DNA of 36,216 bases from Verrucomicrobiota bacterium (GTDB lineage Bacteria > Verrucomicrobiota > Verrucomicrobiia > Limisphaerales > UBA9464), in contig CANGKZ010000048.1 in the NCBI GenBank assembly GCA_947454705.1, positions 1 through 36,216 of the forward strand, read 5' to 3'. The translations under genes and the position numbers were made by a program. The notes under the pieces are model-generated. The model was not told where the DNA came from and did no database searches. It saw nothing but the letters and a program-made list of their open reading frames with translations. Position 1 is the stretch's first letter; the number at the start of each line of letters is the position of its first letter. Below are positions 3,287 to 28,382 of the stretch, in pieces.

Positions 3287-4168
3287 ATGCGCGTCCTCCA
3301 CATCCACGCCCACTTCGACGACTTCGAATTCGTGGCCGCCGGCACCTTCGAATTGTGGCGCCAGACCCGGCCGGAGTTCCGCGGACGCGTGCTGGTGTGC
3401 ACCGACGGACGGAGCGGACACCAATTCCGCACCCGGGAGGAAACCGCGCGGGTCCGCCTGGCCGAACAGGAAGCCAGCGCCGCGCTCGGTGGATACGAAT
3501 TCGAGCTGCTCAAGAAACCGGATGGACGCCCGTTTGAAGAAGCGTGCCGGACCCTGACCACCGACCTTCTCGCCTCGCTCTGGAAATCGATCCGCGAGTT
3601 CGAGCCCGACTACATTCTCTGCCCGCCGCTTCCCACCGATCCCCAGGCCGGAATTCATCCGGACCACGTCACCGTCGCCGAGGCCGTTCGCCGCGTGGCC
3701 TACATGATCAATGTGCCGCATGCCTTTCTCGGGGAATTCCCAGCGGCCGACGAAACCGTGTCCCGCTGGGTCAAGACCCCGGTGATCCTCAACACCTACG
3801 ACGGCTACATGGCCGGGGCGAACGCCGTGGACCTCGCCGTAGAAGTGGAACCCGCCTTCGATCTCGTCGCCCGCGAATCCTGGTGTCACCAGAGCCAGAT
3901 CAACGAATGGCTCCCGTGGGTGGCCCGCCACCACATTGAGCCCACCGCCGATCTCGACGCTTGGAAGGCCCGCCTGCGCTCCCGCTTCCAGCGTCAGGCC
4001 CGCGAAATGGGGCTTCCGGCCGACCGTGCCTGGGAGGTGTTCACCGTCACCGCCTGGGGCACGGTTCCAGGATTGGAACAGCTCCTGCGCGATTTCCCCG
4101 CCCTGCACCAGGATCCCGAGCGGCACGAGCGGCTGCGCACCAAGCTCCGCCGGTGGAGCGGACACTGA
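3287..4168 (+). CDS. PIG-L family deacetylase
   Basis: A 293-residue member of the PIG-L/LmbE zinc deacetylase family (N-acetylglucosaminyl-phosphatidylinositol deacetylase, MshB, BshB and relatives). The N-terminal zinc motif reads HAHFDD (residues 7-12), a variant of the usual AHPDDE with Phe for Pro. The second zinc motif HPDH follows near residue 125. Known members remove acetyl groups from GlcNAc joined to inositol or another aglycone. Next to an inositol-type transport and oxygenase block, an inositol-glycoside substrate is attractive, but this is inference. An in-frame TTG at 3278 would add three residues; ATG 3287 gives the usual family start (MRVLHIHAHFDD). The following gene begins 74 bases later with its own promoter-like sequence. 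Confidence 0.88.
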   Translation: MRVLHIHAHFDDFEFVAAGTFELWRQTRPEFRGRVLVCTDGRSGHQFRTREETARVRLAEQEASAALGGYEFELLKKPDGRPFEEACRTLTTDLLASLWKSIREFEPDYILCPPLPTDPQAGIHPDHVTVAEAVRRVAYMINVPHAFLGEFPAADETVSRWVKTPVILNTYDGYMAGANAVDLAVEVEPAFDLVARESWCHQSQINEWLPWVARHHIEPTADLDAWKARLRSRFQRQAREMGLPADRAWEVFTVTAWGTVPGLEQLLRDFPALHQDPERHERLRTKLRRWSGH

Positions 4169-4206
4169 CCCTTGGTGCGGCTTCCCATTTCCCTGCCGTC
4201 GCACGC

Positions 4207-4236
4207 TTGCCCCAATCCGCCGGGCCTGACTAGGCT
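4207..4236 (+). promoter_or_regulatory. Putative promoter of the ABC-transport/MIOX block
   Basis: TTGCCC (4207-4212) and TAGGCT (4231-4236) are 18 bases apart. The ATG at 4243 follows 6 bases after the -10 box, so a transcript would be leaderless or nearly so. No Shine-Dalgarno sequence precedes the ATG, which agrees with this. Consensus-based inference. Confidence 0.45.
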
Positions 4237-4242
4237 ACGCTC

Positions 4243-5223
4243 ATGACATCCCCGCTGCGTGCGCTTGCGCTCTCTGCCGCCCTCGTGTTTGCCGCGATTG
4301 GAGCCGATTCGTACTCCATCGCCGTCATCCCCAAGGGAACGACCCACGAATTCTGGAAGTCGATCCACGCCGGCGCCGTGAAGGCCGAACAGGAACTCGC
4401 CGCCCAGGGCGTCAAGGTACGCATCTTCTGGAAGGGCCCGCTGCGTGAAGACGATCGCGACCAGCAGATCCAGGTGGTCGAGAACTTCACCGCCCGCAAG
4501 GTCAGCGGCATCGTGCTCGCCCCGCTCGATTCCCAGGCGCTCGTCGCCCCGGTCACCAGCGCCACCCAGGCCGGCATTCCGACGGTGGTCATTGATTCCG
4601 ATCTCAAATCCGACAAGCAGATCAGCTTCGTCGCGACCGACAATTTCAAGGGCGGCCAGATGGGTGCCAACGCGCTTGCTGAATTCCTCGGCGGCAAGGG
4701 CAACGTGATCCTGCTCCGATATCAGGTGGGCAGCGCTAGCACCGAAGCGCGCGAAGCCGGCTTCCTCGACGCCATCCAAAAGCACCCCGGCATCAAGGTG
4801 ATCTCCTCCGACCAACACGCCGGAGCCACCCGCGAACTCGCGTATCAGGCCTCGCAGAATCTTCTGAACCGTTTCGGTCGCGACGTGAACGGCGTCTTCT
4901 GCGCCAACGAGACCGCCACCATCGCCATGACCAAGGCGCTGCGCGACATCGGCAAGACCGGCGGCAAGGTGAAGGTCGTGGGCTTCGACTCCGGCACCCA
5001 GTCCGTGCTCGACCTCCGCCAGGGCGATGTCCAGGCCCTCGTCGTGCAGGATCCGCTCAAGATGGGTTACCTCGGCGTCCTCACCGTGGTGCAGAAGCTG
5101 CAGGGCAAGGCGGTCGAAAAACGCATCGACACCGGCGTCACCCTCGTGACCAAGGAAAACATGTCGGAACCCGCCAACGCCGCGCTCCTCGCACCGCCGA
5201 TCGCCAAGTTCCTCAAGGAATAA
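4243..5223 (+). CDS. ABC transporter sugar/polyol-binding protein (Peripla_BP_4 type)
   Basis: A 326-residue periplasmic binding protein of the ribose/galactose/inositol class. The signal peptide is MTSPLRALALSAALVFAAIGA, with no lipobox cysteine, so the protein is free in the periplasm. The family pattern is clear: IAVIPKGTTHEFWKSIHAGA at the start, QIQVVENFTARKVSGIVLAPLD, GIPTVVIDSD, SFVATDNFKGGQMGA, VFCANETATIAM, VVGFDSG and VQDPLKMGYLGV. The ligand cannot be read from sequence. The permease gene follows after 75 bases and a myo-inositol oxygenase gene after that, so I infer inositol or a related polyol. No lysine/arginine-rich cytoplasmic component or ATP-binding gene is present nearby. 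Confidence 0.88.
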   Translation: MTSPLRALALSAALVFAAIGADSYSIAVIPKGTTHEFWKSIHAGAVKAEQELAAQGVKVRIFWKGPLREDDRDQQIQVVENFTARKVSGIVLAPLDSQALVAPVTSATQAGIPTVVIDSDLKSDKQISFVATDNFKGGQMGANALAEFLGGKGNVILLRYQVGSASTEAREAGFLDAIQKHPGIKVISSDQHAGATRELAYQASQNLLNRFGRDVNGVFCANETATIAMTKALRDIGKTGGKVKVVGFDSGTQSVLDLRQGDVQALVVQDPLKMGYLGVLTVVQKLQGKAVEKRIDTGVTLVTKENMSEPANAALLAPPIAKFLKE

Positions 5224-5262
5224 GTTCAGAGCTTCCGTCACCGGTTCCAGCCAGCGCGTTTT

Positions 5263-5296
5263 CGATCTCCGATCTGCGATCTTCGAACTCCGATCT
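5263..5296 (+). repeat. Period-7 array, CGATCT units
   Basis: CGATCT at 5263, 5270 and 5277, CGAACT at 5284 and CGATCT at 5291: five units, exactly 7 bases apart. The array fills the place where the ribosome binding site of the permease gene should be and ends 2 bases before its GTG start. Confidence 0.7.
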
Positions 5297-5298
5297 TC

Positions 5299-6261
5299 GT
5301 GTCCCGCCTCGCTCGCCTCCTCCAATCCGGCGGCCCATTTTTGGGTCTGTTGCTGGTCTGCGGTCTCTTCGCCCTCACCGAGGAACGTGAATTCATTTTC
5401 ACGGGCGGGAACTTCAAGAACATCCTCACCCAAACCGTCATCGTTGCGGTCGGGGCCCTGGGGATGACCCTCATCATCATCGGCGGCGGCATCGATCTCA
5501 GCGTCGGATCCGTGGTGGCCTTCACCGGCGTCCTCGGAGCCAAACTGCTGGTGGCCGGCTGGAACCCCTGGGCCACCGCCGCGGCGCTCATCGCGGTCGG
5601 CGCCGGCATCGGACTGTTCAACGGCACCATCATCGCCGGGTTCCGCATGATGCCATTCATCGTCACCCTCGGCATGATGGGAATCGTCCGCGGTTCCGCC
5701 AAATGGCTCGGGCAAAACCAGACCATCAACGCCCCGCCCGAATCCCCCGTTCAGCGCCTCATGGCCCGGGTGAATCCGTCCGACTTCTGGCCCCTGCCCC
5801 CCGGCGTGTGGATCCTGCTCGGCCTCGCCGTGGTCATGGCCCTGCTGCTGCGGCGTACCGTTTTTGGGCGTCACGTCTTCGCCATCGGCGCCAACGAGAT
5901 TGCCGCCCGGTACAGCGGCGTGCGGGTGGGATCGGTGAAGGCCGCGACCTACGCCATCGCCGGCATGCTGTTCGGATTTGCGGGATTGCTCCAGATGTCG
6001 CGCCTCACCCAGGGCGACCCCACCGTGGCGGTCGGGCTCGAACTCGACATCATCGCCGCCGTGGTCATCGGCGGGGCCAGCCTGAGCGGCGGCGCGGGGA
6101 GCATTCTTGGATCGTTGATCGGAGCCCTGATCATGGCCCTGCTGCGGAATGGCACCAACCAACTCGGGTGGCAGACCTTCACCCAGGAAATCATCATCGG
6201 CGTGGTCATCGTCCTCGCCGTGGGTCTCGACAAGTGGCGCCAGGCCCGGAGCAGCCGGTGA
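5299..6261 (+). CDS. ABC transporter permease, RbsC/inositol-sugar type (BPD_transp_2)
   Basis: A 320-residue polytopic inner-membrane permease of the RbsC/XylH/IatP class. Family signatures include TLIIIGGGIDLSVGSVVAF (about residues 54-74), FNGTIIAGFRMMPFIVTLG, RRTVFGRHVFAIGANEIAARYSGV, which should contain the contact loop for the ATPase, and VVIGGASLSGGAGS. It should pair with the binding protein encoded just upstream. No ATP-binding subunit lies between or beside the two genes; transporters of this class need an RbsA/MglA-like double ATPase, which must be encoded elsewhere. The start is a GTG directly after a period-7 repeat, with no Shine-Dalgarno sequence. The N terminus (MSRLARLLQSGG before the first membrane segment) supports that start. 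Confidence 0.88.
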   Translation: MSRLARLLQSGGPFLGLLLVCGLFALTEEREFIFTGGNFKNILTQTVIVAVGALGMTLIIIGGGIDLSVGSVVAFTGVLGAKLLVAGWNPWATAAALIAVGAGIGLFNGTIIAGFRMMPFIVTLGMMGIVRGSAKWLGQNQTINAPPESPVQRLMARVNPSDFWPLPPGVWILLGLAVVMALLLRRTVFGRHVFAIGANEIAARYSGVRVGSVKAATYAIAGMLFGFAGLLQMSRLTQGDPTVAVGLELDIIAAVVIGGASLSGGAGSILGSLIGALIMALLRNGTNQLGWQTFTQEIIIGVVIVLAVGLDKWRQARSSR

Positions 6262-6403
6262 TTGCAAGCGGTTGGAAGTGTTCAACTCCGCAGCCGATAA
6301 ATGCCAATTTTCGCAGCGTTTTCCGGCTTGAGGATTTACCTTCAGTCGGCGAACACCGTTGCCGTTCAAGTTGCATCATCAATCTGATTCCTGATTTCGT
6401 TTC

Positions 6404-7309
6404 ATGAGCTCAGCCCCCTCCTCCAATTCCGCCACGCCGCTCCAGAGCCTCGATGAGGTCGAAGACTTCTACAAAACGCGCTATCCGGAGCCGATGAGCG
6501 AAGCCGCGAAGCCCAAGGTGGGCTATGCGCCGGACAAGAAGGAAACCGAGTTCCGCAACTACGAGGCCGACGCGCGTCCGACCGTGCGCGAGTTCTACCG
6601 CCTGAACCACACCTTCCAGACCTACGACTTCGGCGTGGCCAAGCGGAAGGAATACCTCGGGCTGAACCGCATGCAGATGGGCATCTGGGAAGCCGCCGAG
6701 TACCTGAATCAGCTGGTGGACGACAGCGACCCGGACACCGACATGTCCCAGCTCGAGCACCTCCTCCAGACCGCCGAGCATCTCCGCAAGGACGGCCAGC
6801 CCCGCTGGATGATCCTCACCGGCTTTGTCCACGATCTCGGAAAGATCCTCTGCCTTTGGGGCGAACCCCAGTGGGCGGTCGTCGGCGACACCTTCCCGAC
6901 CGGATGCGCCTTCTCGCAGAAAATCGTCTTCCCGAAATTCTTCGAAGCCAACCCCGACAGCAAGGACCCGCGCTTCACCTCGAAGAACGGCGTGTACACC
7001 GAGGGATGCGGACTCGATGCCGTGAACCTCTCCTGGGGCCACGACGAGTACATCTACCAGGTCTGCAAAAACTACCTACCCCTCTCCGGCCTCTACATGC
7101 TGCGGTACCACAGCTTCTATCCGTGGCACCGCGAAGGCGAATACAGCCACCTGCTCAACAACCAGGACCGCGAAAACCTCAAGTGGGTGCAGGCCTTCAA
7201 TCCGTACGACCTCTACACCAAGAGCCACGCCAAGCCCGATGTGAAGGCATTGCGGCCGTACTACGAGGACCTCATCGCCGAATTCTTCCCGGCGAAAGTC
7301 CGCTGGTGA
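6404..7309 (+). CDS. Inositol oxygenase (myo-inositol to D-glucuronate)
   Basis: A 301-residue, full-length homologue of eukaryotic MIOX, the di-iron oxygenase that cleaves the ring of myo-inositol to give D-glucuronate. The six iron ligands known from the mouse enzyme are all recognisable: His126 (TAEH), His143 and Asp144 (VHDLGK), His213 (WGHDEY), His236 (RYHSFYPWH) and Asp269 (NPYDLY). The blocks [26 protein letters not shown] and [10 protein letters not shown] are also intact, so the enzyme is probably active. It is cytoplasmic and has no signal peptide. It follows the binding protein and permease genes after a gap of 142 bases, which may hold a promoter, and ends at a clear terminator. 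The position suggests that the transporter delivers its substrate. Bacterial MIOX is much less common than the InoDH/iol route. Confidence 0.96.
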
Positions 7310-7372: not shown

Positions 7373-7960
7373 ATGAAGGAACGGCTGGCGATCTTTGCGG
7401 CGGGTGCGGCCATCGTCCTCCTGCTCGGCCTCGGTCTCGGCGGCGGCGTGCTGCTCGGGCGATTGCTGCCGTCGGGCGACAAACCGCGCATCGCCGACAC
7501 CACCGCCGTCATCACCCAGATCCGCGCCCTCTCCCAGCTCGTCACCGTTCAGTACGTGTTCGAGAAGGTCGTCCGGATGGATGACATCCAATGGTACGGC
7601 CAGAACCGTCTGCTCATGATCGCGCACGGCGTGGCCAAGGCGGGAGTCGATCTGCAGCAGCTCAAGCCCGGGGACGTAACCATTCATGGCACCAAGCTGA
7701 GCCTGTCCCTCCCCAAACCGCAGTTGTTCGACGTGTACCTCGACGAGAACAAGACGGAGGTCGTGGAGCGCTCGACCGGTCTGCTGCGGAGCTTTGATCA
7801 GCAAATGGAGCAGGAGGCGCGTCGGCAGGCGGTGGAAGAAATCCGCAAAACCGCGCGGGCCTCCGGAATCCTTCGCGATGCTGCCGAACGAACCCGGCTT
7901 CAGCTGGAACTGCTGGGAAAATCCGCCGGCTTCACCGAAGTCGAAATCAAACTCCGTTAG
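7373..7960 (+). CDS. DUF4230 membrane-anchored protein
   Basis: A 195-residue protein with one N-terminal membrane segment (about residues 5-30, LAIFAAGAAIVLLLGLGLGG) and an extracytoplasmic domain of the DUF4230 type. Typical blocks are ITQIRALSQLVTVQYVFEKVV, LLMIAHGVAKAGVDL, VTIHGTKLSLSLPKPQLFDVYLDENKTEVVERSTGLL and a C-terminal helix rich in Glu, Arg and Ala ending with FTEVEIKLR. The function of the family is unknown. It begins 20 bases after the MIOX terminator and is followed 36 bases after its stop by hairpin element A3. The gene beyond (dprA) is convergent. Confidence 0.8.
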   Translation: MKERLAIFAAGAAIVLLLGLGLGGGVLLGRLLPSGDKPRIADTTAVITQIRALSQLVTVQYVFEKVVRMDDIQWYGQNRLLMIAHGVAKAGVDLQQLKPGDVTIHGTKLSLSLPKPQLFDVYLDENKTEVVERSTGLLRSFDQQMEQEARRQAVEEIRKTARASGILRDAAERTRLQLELLGKSAGFTEVEIKLR

Positions 7961-25946: not shown

Positions 25947-27242
25947 ATGAATTTCGTTCGATACTCCGACGCGGATTATTCCGAGCAGGTCCAGCGCGCT
26001 TGCGCTTCCTCGTCGCTCTTTGATGCCGTCATCGAGGAAAGAACCCGGACCATCGTGGAAAAAGTCCGGACCGGCGGAGACGCCGCATTGCTGGAACTGA
26101 CACGCCGGTTCGACGGGGCCGATTTGTCCCAGGAGGGCCTCACCGTCACGGCGGCCGATCGAATGGGCGCGGCGCTGGCGGCCGATGACGCGCTTCGCTC
26201 CGCGGTGGCGGAAGCCCACCGCAACATCGCCAGCTTTTCGAAACGCTCCCGACGCAAGGCGTGGAGTGCAAAAAACTCCCACGGAGGAACCGTCGCCGAA
26301 AAATTCGATCCCTTCACCCGCGTGGGAATCTACATCCCCGGGGGAACAGCCCCCCTCGTTTCAACCGCGCTGATGACCATCACGCTCGCGAAGGTCGCAG
26401 GCTGCCCGGAAATCGTGGTCTGCACTCCGCCTGGAAAGGACGGATCCATCAATCCCGCGTTGCTCTACGCCGCGGGGGTCGCAGGCGCAACCGAAGTGTA
26501 TCGGGTCGGCGGAGCCCAGGCGATTGCAGCAATGGCCCTCGGCACCGGCACGATACGACGGGTGCAGAAAGTCTTCGGCCCGGGCAACGCCTACGTGGTC
26601 GCGGCCAAGCGGTTGCTCTTCGGGCAAGTCGCCGTGGACCTGCTTCCTGGACCGAGCGAGGTGCTGGTGCTCGCCGACGACTCGGCGGAACCGAAGTTTA
26701 TCGCTGCGGATCTTCTCGCTCAGGCGGAGCACGGCTCCGGACACGAGCGCGTCTGGCTCATCACGCCTTCGCTGAAGCTGATTCGATCGGTTCAGGCTGA
26801 GCTGAAGCGCCAGCTCCCGAAACTCCAGCGACGCGAATTCATCGAACGCGCCCTCGCGGCGAACGGATGGATGATCCAGGTGAAATCGCTCGACGAAGGC
26901 ACCGATCTCGCGAATCGACTGGCCCCGGAACATTGCGAGCTGATGACCCGTGACGCCCGGAAACGTTCCGAACGCATCCTGACCGCCGGGGCGATCTTCC
27001 TCGGCAATCATTCTCCCACCGTGCTCGGTGATTACGTTGCCGGCCCCAGCCACACCCTCCCCACCGGAGGCGCCGGCGCGAGCTTCGCGGGCTTGACGGT
27101 CGATCAATTCCAGCGCCGCACCAGCGTCACCGAATACGGCCGCCCCGCCTTGAAAAAGGCCCTCAAGGCGGTGCAAACTTTTGCCGATTTGGAGGGACTG
27201 GATGCCCACGGACGCTCGGCATCAATCCGCATTCAAGGTTGA
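25947..27242 (+). CDS. hisD: Histidinol dehydrogenase
   Basis: A 431-residue enzyme of normal length that catalyses the last two steps of histidine synthesis (histidinol to histidinal to histidine, NAD and zinc). Zinc ligands are present: Gln259 and His262 (LAQAEHGSGHERVW), Asp362 (VLGDYVAGPSH) and His421 (LDAHGRSASIR). The catalytic pair Glu328-His329 lies in LAPEHCELM. The signature around residues 210-245 (FGPGNAYVVAAKRLLFGQVAVDLLPGPSEVLVLAD) is intact. Cytoplasmic. The frame is open upstream to 25794, but ATG 25947 gives the family N terminus. hisC follows after 18 bases, so the two form an operon. Confidence 0.97.
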   Translation: MNFVRYSDADYSEQVQRACASSSLFDAVIEERTRTIVEKVRTGGDAALLELTRRFDGADLSQEGLTVTAADRMGAALAADDALRSAVAEAHRNIASFSKRSRRKAWSAKNSHGGTVAEKFDPFTRVGIYIPGGTAPLVSTALMTITLAKVAGCPEIVVCTPPGKDGSINPALLYAAGVAGATEVYRVGGAQAIAAMALGTGTIRRVQKVFGPGNAYVVAAKRLLFGQVAVDLLPGPSEVLVLADDSAEPKFIAADLLAQAEHGSGHERVWLITPSLKLIRSVQAELKRQLPKLQRREFIERALAANGWMIQVKSLDEGTDLANRLAPEHCELMTRDARKRSERILTAGAIFLGNHSPTVLGDYVAGPSHTLPTGGAGASFAGLTVDQFQRRTSVTEYGRPALKKALKAVQTFADLEGLDAHGRSASIRIQG

Positions 27243-27260
27243 TCCGCACTCCACGCACTC

Positions 27261-28382
27261 ATGGCATCCAATCGATCCCTGGTTCGACCATTGGTCCAAG
27301 GCCTTCACGGGTACGTCCCGGGAGAGCAGCCGAAGATCCGAGGTCTGATCAAACTCAACACCAACGAGAACCCCTACCCTCCGTCGCCCAAGGTGCTGGC
27401 GGCAACCAAGGCCGCGGTGGACGGTCGGTTCCGATTGTATCCGAATCCCACCTCGCAGCCGCTCCGCGAGGCGCTGGCGAAACTGCACGGATGCAGCCCG
27501 TCCCAGGTGTTCATCGGCAATGGTTCCGACGAATTGCTCGCGCTCGCGTTGCGCGCGTTCGTTGAGCCGGAAACCGGCAGCAAGAGCATCGACGCCGCAA
27601 CGGTCCAATACTTCGATCCGAGCTACTCGCTCTATCCGGTGCTCGCCGCGATTCACGGCGCCCGCTGCCATCCGGTGCCGCTCGGGCCTGGTTTTTCGAT
27701 TCCTGCGATTCCCAAGAAACGCGGGAGTTCCCCAACCGCGTGGAATCCCGACGCTGCGCTCAGTTTCGTCACCACCCCCAACGCTCCGAGCGGAACCGGC
27801 TACCGCACCAGCGCTCTGGAAACCCTCTGCAAGGCCACCCGCGGCGTCGTGGTTCTTGATGAAGCCTACGTGGATTTTGCAAAGGAGAACGCCCTGGAGC
27901 TCGCACTCCGTCTGCCCAACGTTCTGGTCTTCCGTACCTTCTCAAAGGCCTATTCGTTGTGCTTCCAGCGGGTCGGATATTGCATCGGCCCGGCCGAACT
28001 CATCGACGCGCTGGATCGCATCCGGGACAGCTACAACGTCAACGGACTTGGCCAGGTCGCTGCCCTCGCGACGCTGAAGGACCTTCCCTACTACCGGAAA
28101 AACTTCCGCAGGATCATCGCCACCCGGGAACGACTCACCGAAGCACTCACCGAGCTCGGTTTTATCGTCGTCCCCAGCCAGACCAATTTCATCCTCGCCA
28201 AGCCCCCTGGCCCGCCGGCGGAGCAGTGGCTGCAGCAACTCCGCGAACACCGCATCCTGGTGCGTTGGTTCCGCAATTCGGCCATCGCCGATCACCTCCG
28301 GATCACCATCGGGTCCGAGGCCGAGGCCGAGCAACTGCTCCGCGTCGTCCGGCGCCTCGTTGCAAAATCGTCCCAGCGCTGA
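27261..28382 (+). CDS. hisC: Histidinol-phosphate aminotransferase
   Basis: A 373-residue PLP-dependent aminotransferase (fold type I) that makes histidinol phosphate from imidazole-acetol phosphate and glutamate. Family marks: LNTNENPYPPSP near residue 32, IGNGSDELL near 85, TTPNAPSGT with the Asn at 174, VVLDEAYVDF with Asp200, and the PLP lysine Lys229 in FRTFSKAYSL. The segment after the lysine reads CFQRVGY where LAGLRLGY is usual; the Arg is kept, so activity is expected. It lies 18 bases after hisD and 10 bases before the next gene, implying one transcript. HisC enzymes can also serve aromatic amino-acid synthesis. Confidence 0.95.
   Translation: MASNRSLVRPLVQGLHGYVPGEQPKIRGLIKLNTNENPYPPSPKVLAATKAAVDGRFRLYPNPTSQPLREALAKLHGCSPSQVFIGNGSDELLALALRAFVEPETGSKSIDAATVQYFDPSYSLYPVLAAIHGARCHPVPLGPGFSIPAIPKKRGSSPTAWNPDAALSFVTTPNAPSGTGYRTSALETLCKATRGVVVLDEAYVDFAKENALELALRLPNVLVFRTFSKAYSLCFQRVGYCIGPAELIDALDRIRDSYNVNGLGQVAALATLKDLPYYRKNFRRIIATRERLTEALTELGFIVVPSQTNFILAKPPGPPAEQWLQQLREHRILVRWFRNSAIADHLRITIGSEAEAEQLLRVVRRLVAKSSQR

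Follow-up and report, generated by a model that had tools for sequence, protein, structure and literature searches.

An inositol oxygenase-linked CUT2 importer of Verrucomicrobiota that has lost its dedicated ATPase and is probably powered by a shared RbsA-type ATPase

How can an ATP-binding cassette (ABC) importer work when no ATPase is encoded beside it? The question is raised by a stretch of 36,216 nucleotides (the window), contig C48 of the draft genome of a Verrucomicrobiota bacterium (G000; 5.45 Mb in 80 contigs, 95.7% complete). A PIG-L deacetylase, a sugar-type periplasmic binding protein (SBP), a permease and a myo-inositol oxygenase (MIOX) are encoded there in a row on the plus strand, where the initial annotation had placed them, and all four score above their Pfam cut-offs. 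Sequence comparison suggests that the row represents a CUT2 importer with MIOX whose dedicated ATPase has been lost and which would depend on a shared RbsA-type ATPase acting in trans, a reading to which a probability of roughly 0.6 is assigned. The relevant features are:

3287..4168, plus strand, PIG-L family deacetylase, a loosely linked member (PF02585, 57.7 bits, cut-off 28.2)
4243..5223, plus strand, CUT2 sugar-type SBP (PF13407, 206 bits)
5299..6261, plus strand, CUT2 permease with GTG start and no ATPase gene beside it (PF02653, 158 bits)
5890..5916, plus strand, predicted cytoplasmic coupling loop at which the ATPase would dock on the permease (residues 198–206, ANEIAARYS; from the model and a column association ranking)
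6404..7309, plus strand, MIOX, 301 residues (PF05153, 374 bits, profile positions 3–249 of 249)
7373..7960, plus strand, DUF4230 protein, a frequent neighbour of MIOX (PF14014, 121.6 bits)

The Peripla_BP_4 SBP and the BPD_transp_2 permease, both above the Pfam cut-off, are those of a CUT2 importer. An RbsA-type ATPase in the same operon, which also belongs to such a system, is missing from the window and present in relatives. The gaps between the four genes (74, 75 and 142 bases) are too small for an ATPase gene, and no remnant was found in the window by tblastn with four RbsA-type ATPases as queries (best E 0.2). The missing ATPase noted in the initial annotation is thus absent both as a gene and as a remnant. 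MIOX is full-length, as had been stated, and covers the whole profile.

The genomes used for comparison are drafts in numerous contigs, and most if not all are metagenome-assembled genomes (MAGs). The dedicated ATPase was searched for in 49 genomes of the family with the G043 protein as query and counted at an identity of at least 57% over nearly the full length. It is present in 24 of them, all in genera g4, g6, g7 and g8 (in G045 as a 65% fragment); a 61% fragment in G030 (g7), which has no permease, was not scored. No searched genome of g1, the window's genus with G000 and G007, or of g2, g3, g5 and g9 contains it, and it was not found in G019, G027, G036 and G038 either. Partial matches of 53–56% in G006, G008, G011, G012 and G049 are C3-type ATPases (63–78% identical to the ATPase on contig C3 of the window genome), which supports the loss of the dedicated one. 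Among high-quality genomes, the dedicated ATPase is absent from all 12 of these five genera and present in 15 of the 16 others. The window-type permease occurs in 44 family genomes, 24 with the dedicated ATPase and 20 in which it was not found; five genomes without such a permease of at least 60% were left out (G004, G010, G030, G046 and G049).

Further loci were collected with an alignment of 16 SBPs as query. The 80 named loci are the best 80 of 545 relatives and stem from Verrucomicrobiota MAGs, some of them Limisphaerales or Pedosphaera; gene order was read by tblastn with reference genes, which may overlook additional genes within or next to the sets. Twenty loci cut by contig ends were left out. 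In 29 of the 60 scorable loci MIOX follows the SBP on the same strand within 3.5 kb, so that the proposed link between uptake and oxidation is borne out by one conserved cassette. Two of these 29 loci (L274 and L283) have the order SBP-ATPase-permease-MIOX, 12 have SBP-permease-MIOX without a dedicated ATPase and 15 consist of SBP-MIOX alone. MIOX is present in 42 of 50 family genomes. The order SBP-permease-MIOX is retained in several g1 genomes, in G003 (g2) and in G011 (g3), and in G013 (g4), G025 and G031 (both g7) permease and dedicated ATPase genes are located on separate contigs. These arrangements are most simply explained by an ancestral operon of four genes from which members were later lost or dispersed. 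Of the gene order given in the initial annotation, the SBP, permease and MIOX part is kept in relatives; PIG-L is usually located elsewhere. At one of the 12 loci without the dedicated ATPase (L245:147-4919) another RbsA-type ATPase, 45% identical to that of C3, is encoded upstream of SBP-permease-MIOX, and the permease has the loop AARHCG; a motor replacement inside the operon is possible there.

The following course of events is proposed. In the periplasm the SBP would bind a cyclitol, with myo-inositol as the most likely one, which the permease would import and MIOX would cleave to glucuronate. The ancestral operon would have carried its own RbsA-type ATPase, which the window's genus and four other genera would have lost from operon and genome. 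The permease would now work with an ATPase encoded elsewhere, most likely a stand-alone one on contig C4 that derives from another, scattered importer and acts as a shared motor. Upon loss of the private ATPase a loop of the permease would have switched from a private form, ARLCG, to a general one ending in Ser-Gly.

The remaining genes look to be under purifying selection after the loss. In pairs of genomes without the dedicated ATPase, the ratio of nonsynonymous to synonymous substitution rates (dN/dS) is 0.02–0.08 for the permease (four pairs), 0.01–0.13 for the SBP, 0.02–0.09 for MIOX and 0.02–0.06 for the stand-alone ATPase (three pairs each), rough values as dS is near 1, close to saturation, in many pairs.

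The window genome encodes three full RbsA-type ATPases. Two are parts of complete operons on contigs C3 and C22, and the third stands alone (C4:189309-190793) and is flanked by genes for a pilin-like protein and a DinG-like helicase, both named by eye; an orphan RbsA-like ATPase elsewhere in the genome, for which the initial annotation had suggested to look, thus exists. It matches the RbsA profile NF008030 over 4–492 of 501, below the equivalog cut-off, and contains two ABC_tran stretches with one Walker A and two Walker B matches. No match to the signature-motif pattern was obtained in any of the four ATPases examined, and this pattern is uninformative. The three ATPases face five CUT2 permease systems, namely the complete ones of C3 and C22, that of the window, a fructan-type one on C13 and a lone permease (C3:209694). 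Three of these systems have no ATPase beside them.

In a quick tree, from which matches with fewer than 380 aligned query residues were left out, stand-alone and dedicated ATPases form separate clades (SH-aLRT 100 each). Within the family, 39 of 49 genomes encode the stand-alone ATPase (G034 in two pieces); in the order, family included, it occurs at E 1e-150 or better in 50 of 195 genomes. All 16 permease-bearing genomes of g1, g2, g3, g5 and g9 have it. Among the named classes of RbsA-type ATPases (stand-alone, C3-type and C22-type) it is the only one common to all 16, because G008 has only the stand-alone and the C3-type and G048 only the stand-alone and the C22-type.

The neighbourhood of the stand-alone ATPase points to its origin. 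Outside the family 20 extended regions were compared; seven include a C3:209694-type permease close to the ATPase, and in six of these seven an SBP of one type is located between the two. Four further regions contain that SBP only (10 of 20 with the SBP), and none of 11 extended regions within the family has either partner. The ATPase therefore appears to come from another importer that is scattered in this family; an orphan without history was considered and rejected on account of these partners. The C3:209694-type permease is present in 27 of 49 family genomes. Nine of the ten genomes without the stand-alone ATPase also lack this permease (the exception is G044), and 13 genomes keep the ATPase without it. 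This distribution agrees with a motor that serves more than a single client, with draft gaps adding noise.

The site at which an ATPase would dock was sought in the permease model. The AlphaFold model (mean predicted local distance difference test score, pLDDT, of 77) has helices at residues 188–198 and 200–205 between transmembrane helices TM6 and TM7 (own count). Its best Foldseek matches are BtuC-like, the best having an E of 1.9e-3 and none passing 0.001, and a PDB sequence search gave no relatives. The ATPase-coupling helices of BtuC sit in the corresponding loop, and the TM6-TM7 loop of the modelled permease is expected to be the docking site.

Residue 206 in this loop is Cys in all 37 permeases that have a dedicated ATPase (24 family genomes and 13 outside loci) and Ser in 26 of the 35 that lack one (16 family, 10 outside). 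The other nine retain Cys (G019, G027, G036, G038, L245, L249, L256, L265 and L280), and among them L249, L265 and L280 show the RLCG loop in full. When the 311 alignment columns were ranked by association with the dedicated ATPase, a ranking made after the loop had already been inspected, residues 206, 198, 205 and 202 took ranks 1, 2, 3 and 5. Residue 206 is first in the family alone, both for 44 rows and for the 28 high-quality rows; in the 28 outside rows the top three are residues 202, 206 and 198, in this order, and residue 205 is ninth. In a permease tree built without the loop, residue 206 changes five times, and every Ser row is one without dedicated ATPase (L259, which has no loop sequence, was left out of tree and rankings). 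A single founder event was rejected as the best tree needs five changes, not all of its branches being well supported. Among three independent pairs that differ at residue 206, one to three agree with the ATPase status and none disagrees. The private form of the loop is ARLCG and that of the window ARYSG. In all 33 permeases of the type associated with the C4-type ATPase the loop ends in Ser-Gly, as it does in those fructan permeases that matched the pattern, in the C22 permease (AARFSG) and in one of two C3 permeases (AARLSG). Across these alignments, the private Cys loop accompanies the private motor, and its loss is associated with the general form.

A second importer shows a similar pattern. 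The fructan-type set of the window genome (C13:1111-5530, L189) consists of SBP, GH32 and permease genes without an ATPase, and its relatives in g7 and in G042 have the ATPase in the operon. Overall, an operon ATPase is present in 16 genomes and none was seen in 16 others. G017 was left out because of a contig end and G049 because of its divergence; G007, G011, G039 and G040 are scored as ATPase-less from a stretch without the SBP, beside which an ATPase is possible, and contig ends are nearby in G007 and G040. The losses in the two importers tend to coincide. Among the 31 scored genomes in which the window-type permease is also present, 13 kept both ATPases, 13 lost both and five are discordant (G039, G040, G019, G027 and G047; Fisher p 0.0002); the high-quality genomes comprise nine, eleven and three, respectively (p 0.0006). 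Kinship is uncorrected in this and the other association tests. At slightly better than even odds, the order has a shared RbsA-type motor for which at least two importers, the inositol/MIOX and the fructan type, dropped their own ATPases in several lineages, the private loop of the inositol-type permease giving way to the general one.

The substrate is most likely myo-inositol, as judged by analogy from the known chemistry of the MIOX family, which converts myo-inositol to glucuronate. The window MIOX is homologous to the inositol oxygenase 2huo over residues 34–301 (E 1e-79) with conserved blocks including DLYTK, which are expected to carry the iron ligands. The SBP model (pLDDT 88) has a sugar-binding-protein fold. 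Its best solved matches are 4rxt, 4wut and 5dkv (30–36% identity). A pocket comparison in which kinship was not removed gave a lead at residue 270 of the SBP, next to the conserved Gln269. Of the SBPs linked to MIOX, 24 of 29 have Asp at this position, and of the unlinked ones 23 of 31 have Asn. A genome-wide profile search for uxaC, a check named in the initial annotation, found no UxaC (PF02614) in the window genome, with 7 of 14 control genomes positive. KduI/IolB (PF04962) is also absent genome-wide (6 of 14 controls positive), the iol families otherwise not having been tested one by one. Glucuronate thus seems to bypass the common isomerase pathway, and at least a part of the standard iol route is missing.

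Several observations weigh against a shared C4 motor. The physical pairing of the permease with the C4 ATPase is one that we infer from sequence, and the loop cannot single out this ATPase because permeases with other ATPases also have the general form. Cys206 is kept without an ATPase in G019 (86% complete), G027 (92%), G036 (74%) and G038 (86%), and outside the family the ATPase status is judged from the locus only. In the family alone, residues 205 and 198 fall to ranks 6–8 and residue 202 is outside the top 12. In seven well-supported pairs that differ in ATPase status, residue 206 differs in the expected way in two to three and is the same in four to five (p 0.25–0.5), so the independent changes are too few for significance. 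The presence/absence tests are weak as well. Of the genomes with the dedicated ATPase 17 of 24 also have the stand-alone one, versus 19 of 20 of those without (one-sided Fisher p 0.04); the figures for the 28 high-quality genomes are 12 of 15 versus 13 of 13 (p 0.14). Being kept in those 17 genomes, the C4-type ATPase is not maintained for the window transporter only. G019 shows neither a dedicated nor a stand-alone ATPase. The origin of the C4 ATPase in another importer weakens the argument that an orphan needs a partner and leaves the count of three motors for five systems. As for the substrate, the closest solved relatives of the SBP are not 4irx (which we take to be IbpA) or 4rxm, both presumably inositol-bound; the match to 4irx has an E of 5.5e-20.

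Other explanations for the missing ATPase start from the same data. It is unlikely that the transporter borrows the ATPase of the complete C22 or C3 operon instead of the stand-alone one. Both are of the RbsA type, and Ser-Gly loops occur in the C22 permease and in one of the two on C3, but each of these ATPases is tied to its own SBP and permease in the window genome, and G008 and G048, which do without the C22-type and the C3-type, respectively, both have the stand-alone one. A decaying system, in which SBP and permease are left over and transport is gone, would agree with the loss from operon and genome and with the scattered subunits of g7. It is nevertheless judged quite unlikely in view of the low, if rough, dN/dS values near dS saturation, the gene order kept in several g1 genomes, G003 and G011, and a docking loop that is altered and not eroded. 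The initial annotation had offered a shared ATPase or a reduced system. Sharing fits better and reduction less well, since a stand-alone ATPase exists, signs of purifying selection are seen and the docking loop has changed. That the gene is real and hidden in the missing 4% of the assembly is conceivable for a draft of 80 contigs, yet highly improbable given its consistent absence from the high-quality genomes of the five genera and presence in nearly all others.

The initial annotation had further proposed that the set handles an inositol glycoside which PIG-L would deacetylate. PIG-L adjoins the SBP in G000 and G007 (g1) and lies near MIOX in four g8 genomes (G038, G039, G041 and G045), which would suit this idea. 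Only in these six was PIG-L seen near SBP or MIOX, although it is present in 42 of 49 family genomes (single-copy except for an extra fragment in G047), and in most family genomes that have both, PIG-L and MIOX are on different contigs. In G005 PIG-L and its possible cassette partner are both at contig ends. There is no glycosidase in the cassette, the loci having been read with reference genes only. The window PIG-L is not BshB1 (25.5 bits versus the TIGR04001 cut-off of 182.5), and a PDB sequence search with it gave no relatives. An inositol glycoside is thus not indicated and appears very unlikely; PIG-L is no defining part of the system and may belong to an older cluster.

The DUF4230 gene downstream of MIOX adjoins it also in G005, G009, G011, G046 and G048. 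In g8 genomes MIOX has a gene for the pyrimidine/purine nucleoside phosphorylase PpnP (PF06865) as a neighbour (L049:5058-5381; by clustering also L051, L052, L066 and L069). G038 contains a second, divergent MIOX (C55:9988-10878, L061; 53% identity), and the 20 kb read at this locus lack all reference importer genes. Elsewhere in the window, two genes at 25947-28382 resemble hisD and hisC by eye.

The gene row identified here links uptake to MIOX in bacteria. If a shared motor is indeed used, the motor loss together with the nine-residue loop change would be a natural experiment on the choice of partner by an ABC permease, and the loop switch a natural record of motor exchange. Searches of the open-licence literature found no report on motor sharing by CUT2 importers and nothing direct on MIOX in Verrucomicrobia or on RbsC coupling helices.

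The window MIOX resembles the inositol oxygenases 2huo and 2ibn in its conserved blocks over residues 34–301; unlike these, it is bacterial and encoded beside a transporter. Compared to RbsABC-like CUT2 importers, the families of SBP and permease are the same and relatives have an RbsA-type ATPase, whereas the window genome has lost the dedicated one. The myo-inositol importer IbpA-IatA-IatP of Caulobacter crescentus likewise combines SBP and permease for the substrate suggested here. It has its own ATPase IatA, whose deletion abolishes growth on inositol, and feeds the iol pathway and not MIOX (PMC2597717). In Caldicellulosiruptor bescii each CUT2 system is reported to have a dedicated ATPase and the CUT1 ones to lack one (PMC8579813). 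The closest parallel in organization is MsmX/MsmK, a stand-alone multitask ATPase that energises several sugar importers lacking their own (PMC7658222). The window genome also combines a stand-alone ATPase with importers without one, here by gene counts alone (three versus five). MsmX/MsmK is a MalK-like subunit of type I importers; the C4 ATPase is not of this MalK/CUT1 kind but RbsA-type with two ABC stretches, and the importers are CUT2. Sharing of a motor is an established feature among CUT1/type I sugar importers, and within the open-licence literature a CUT2 case would appear to be new.

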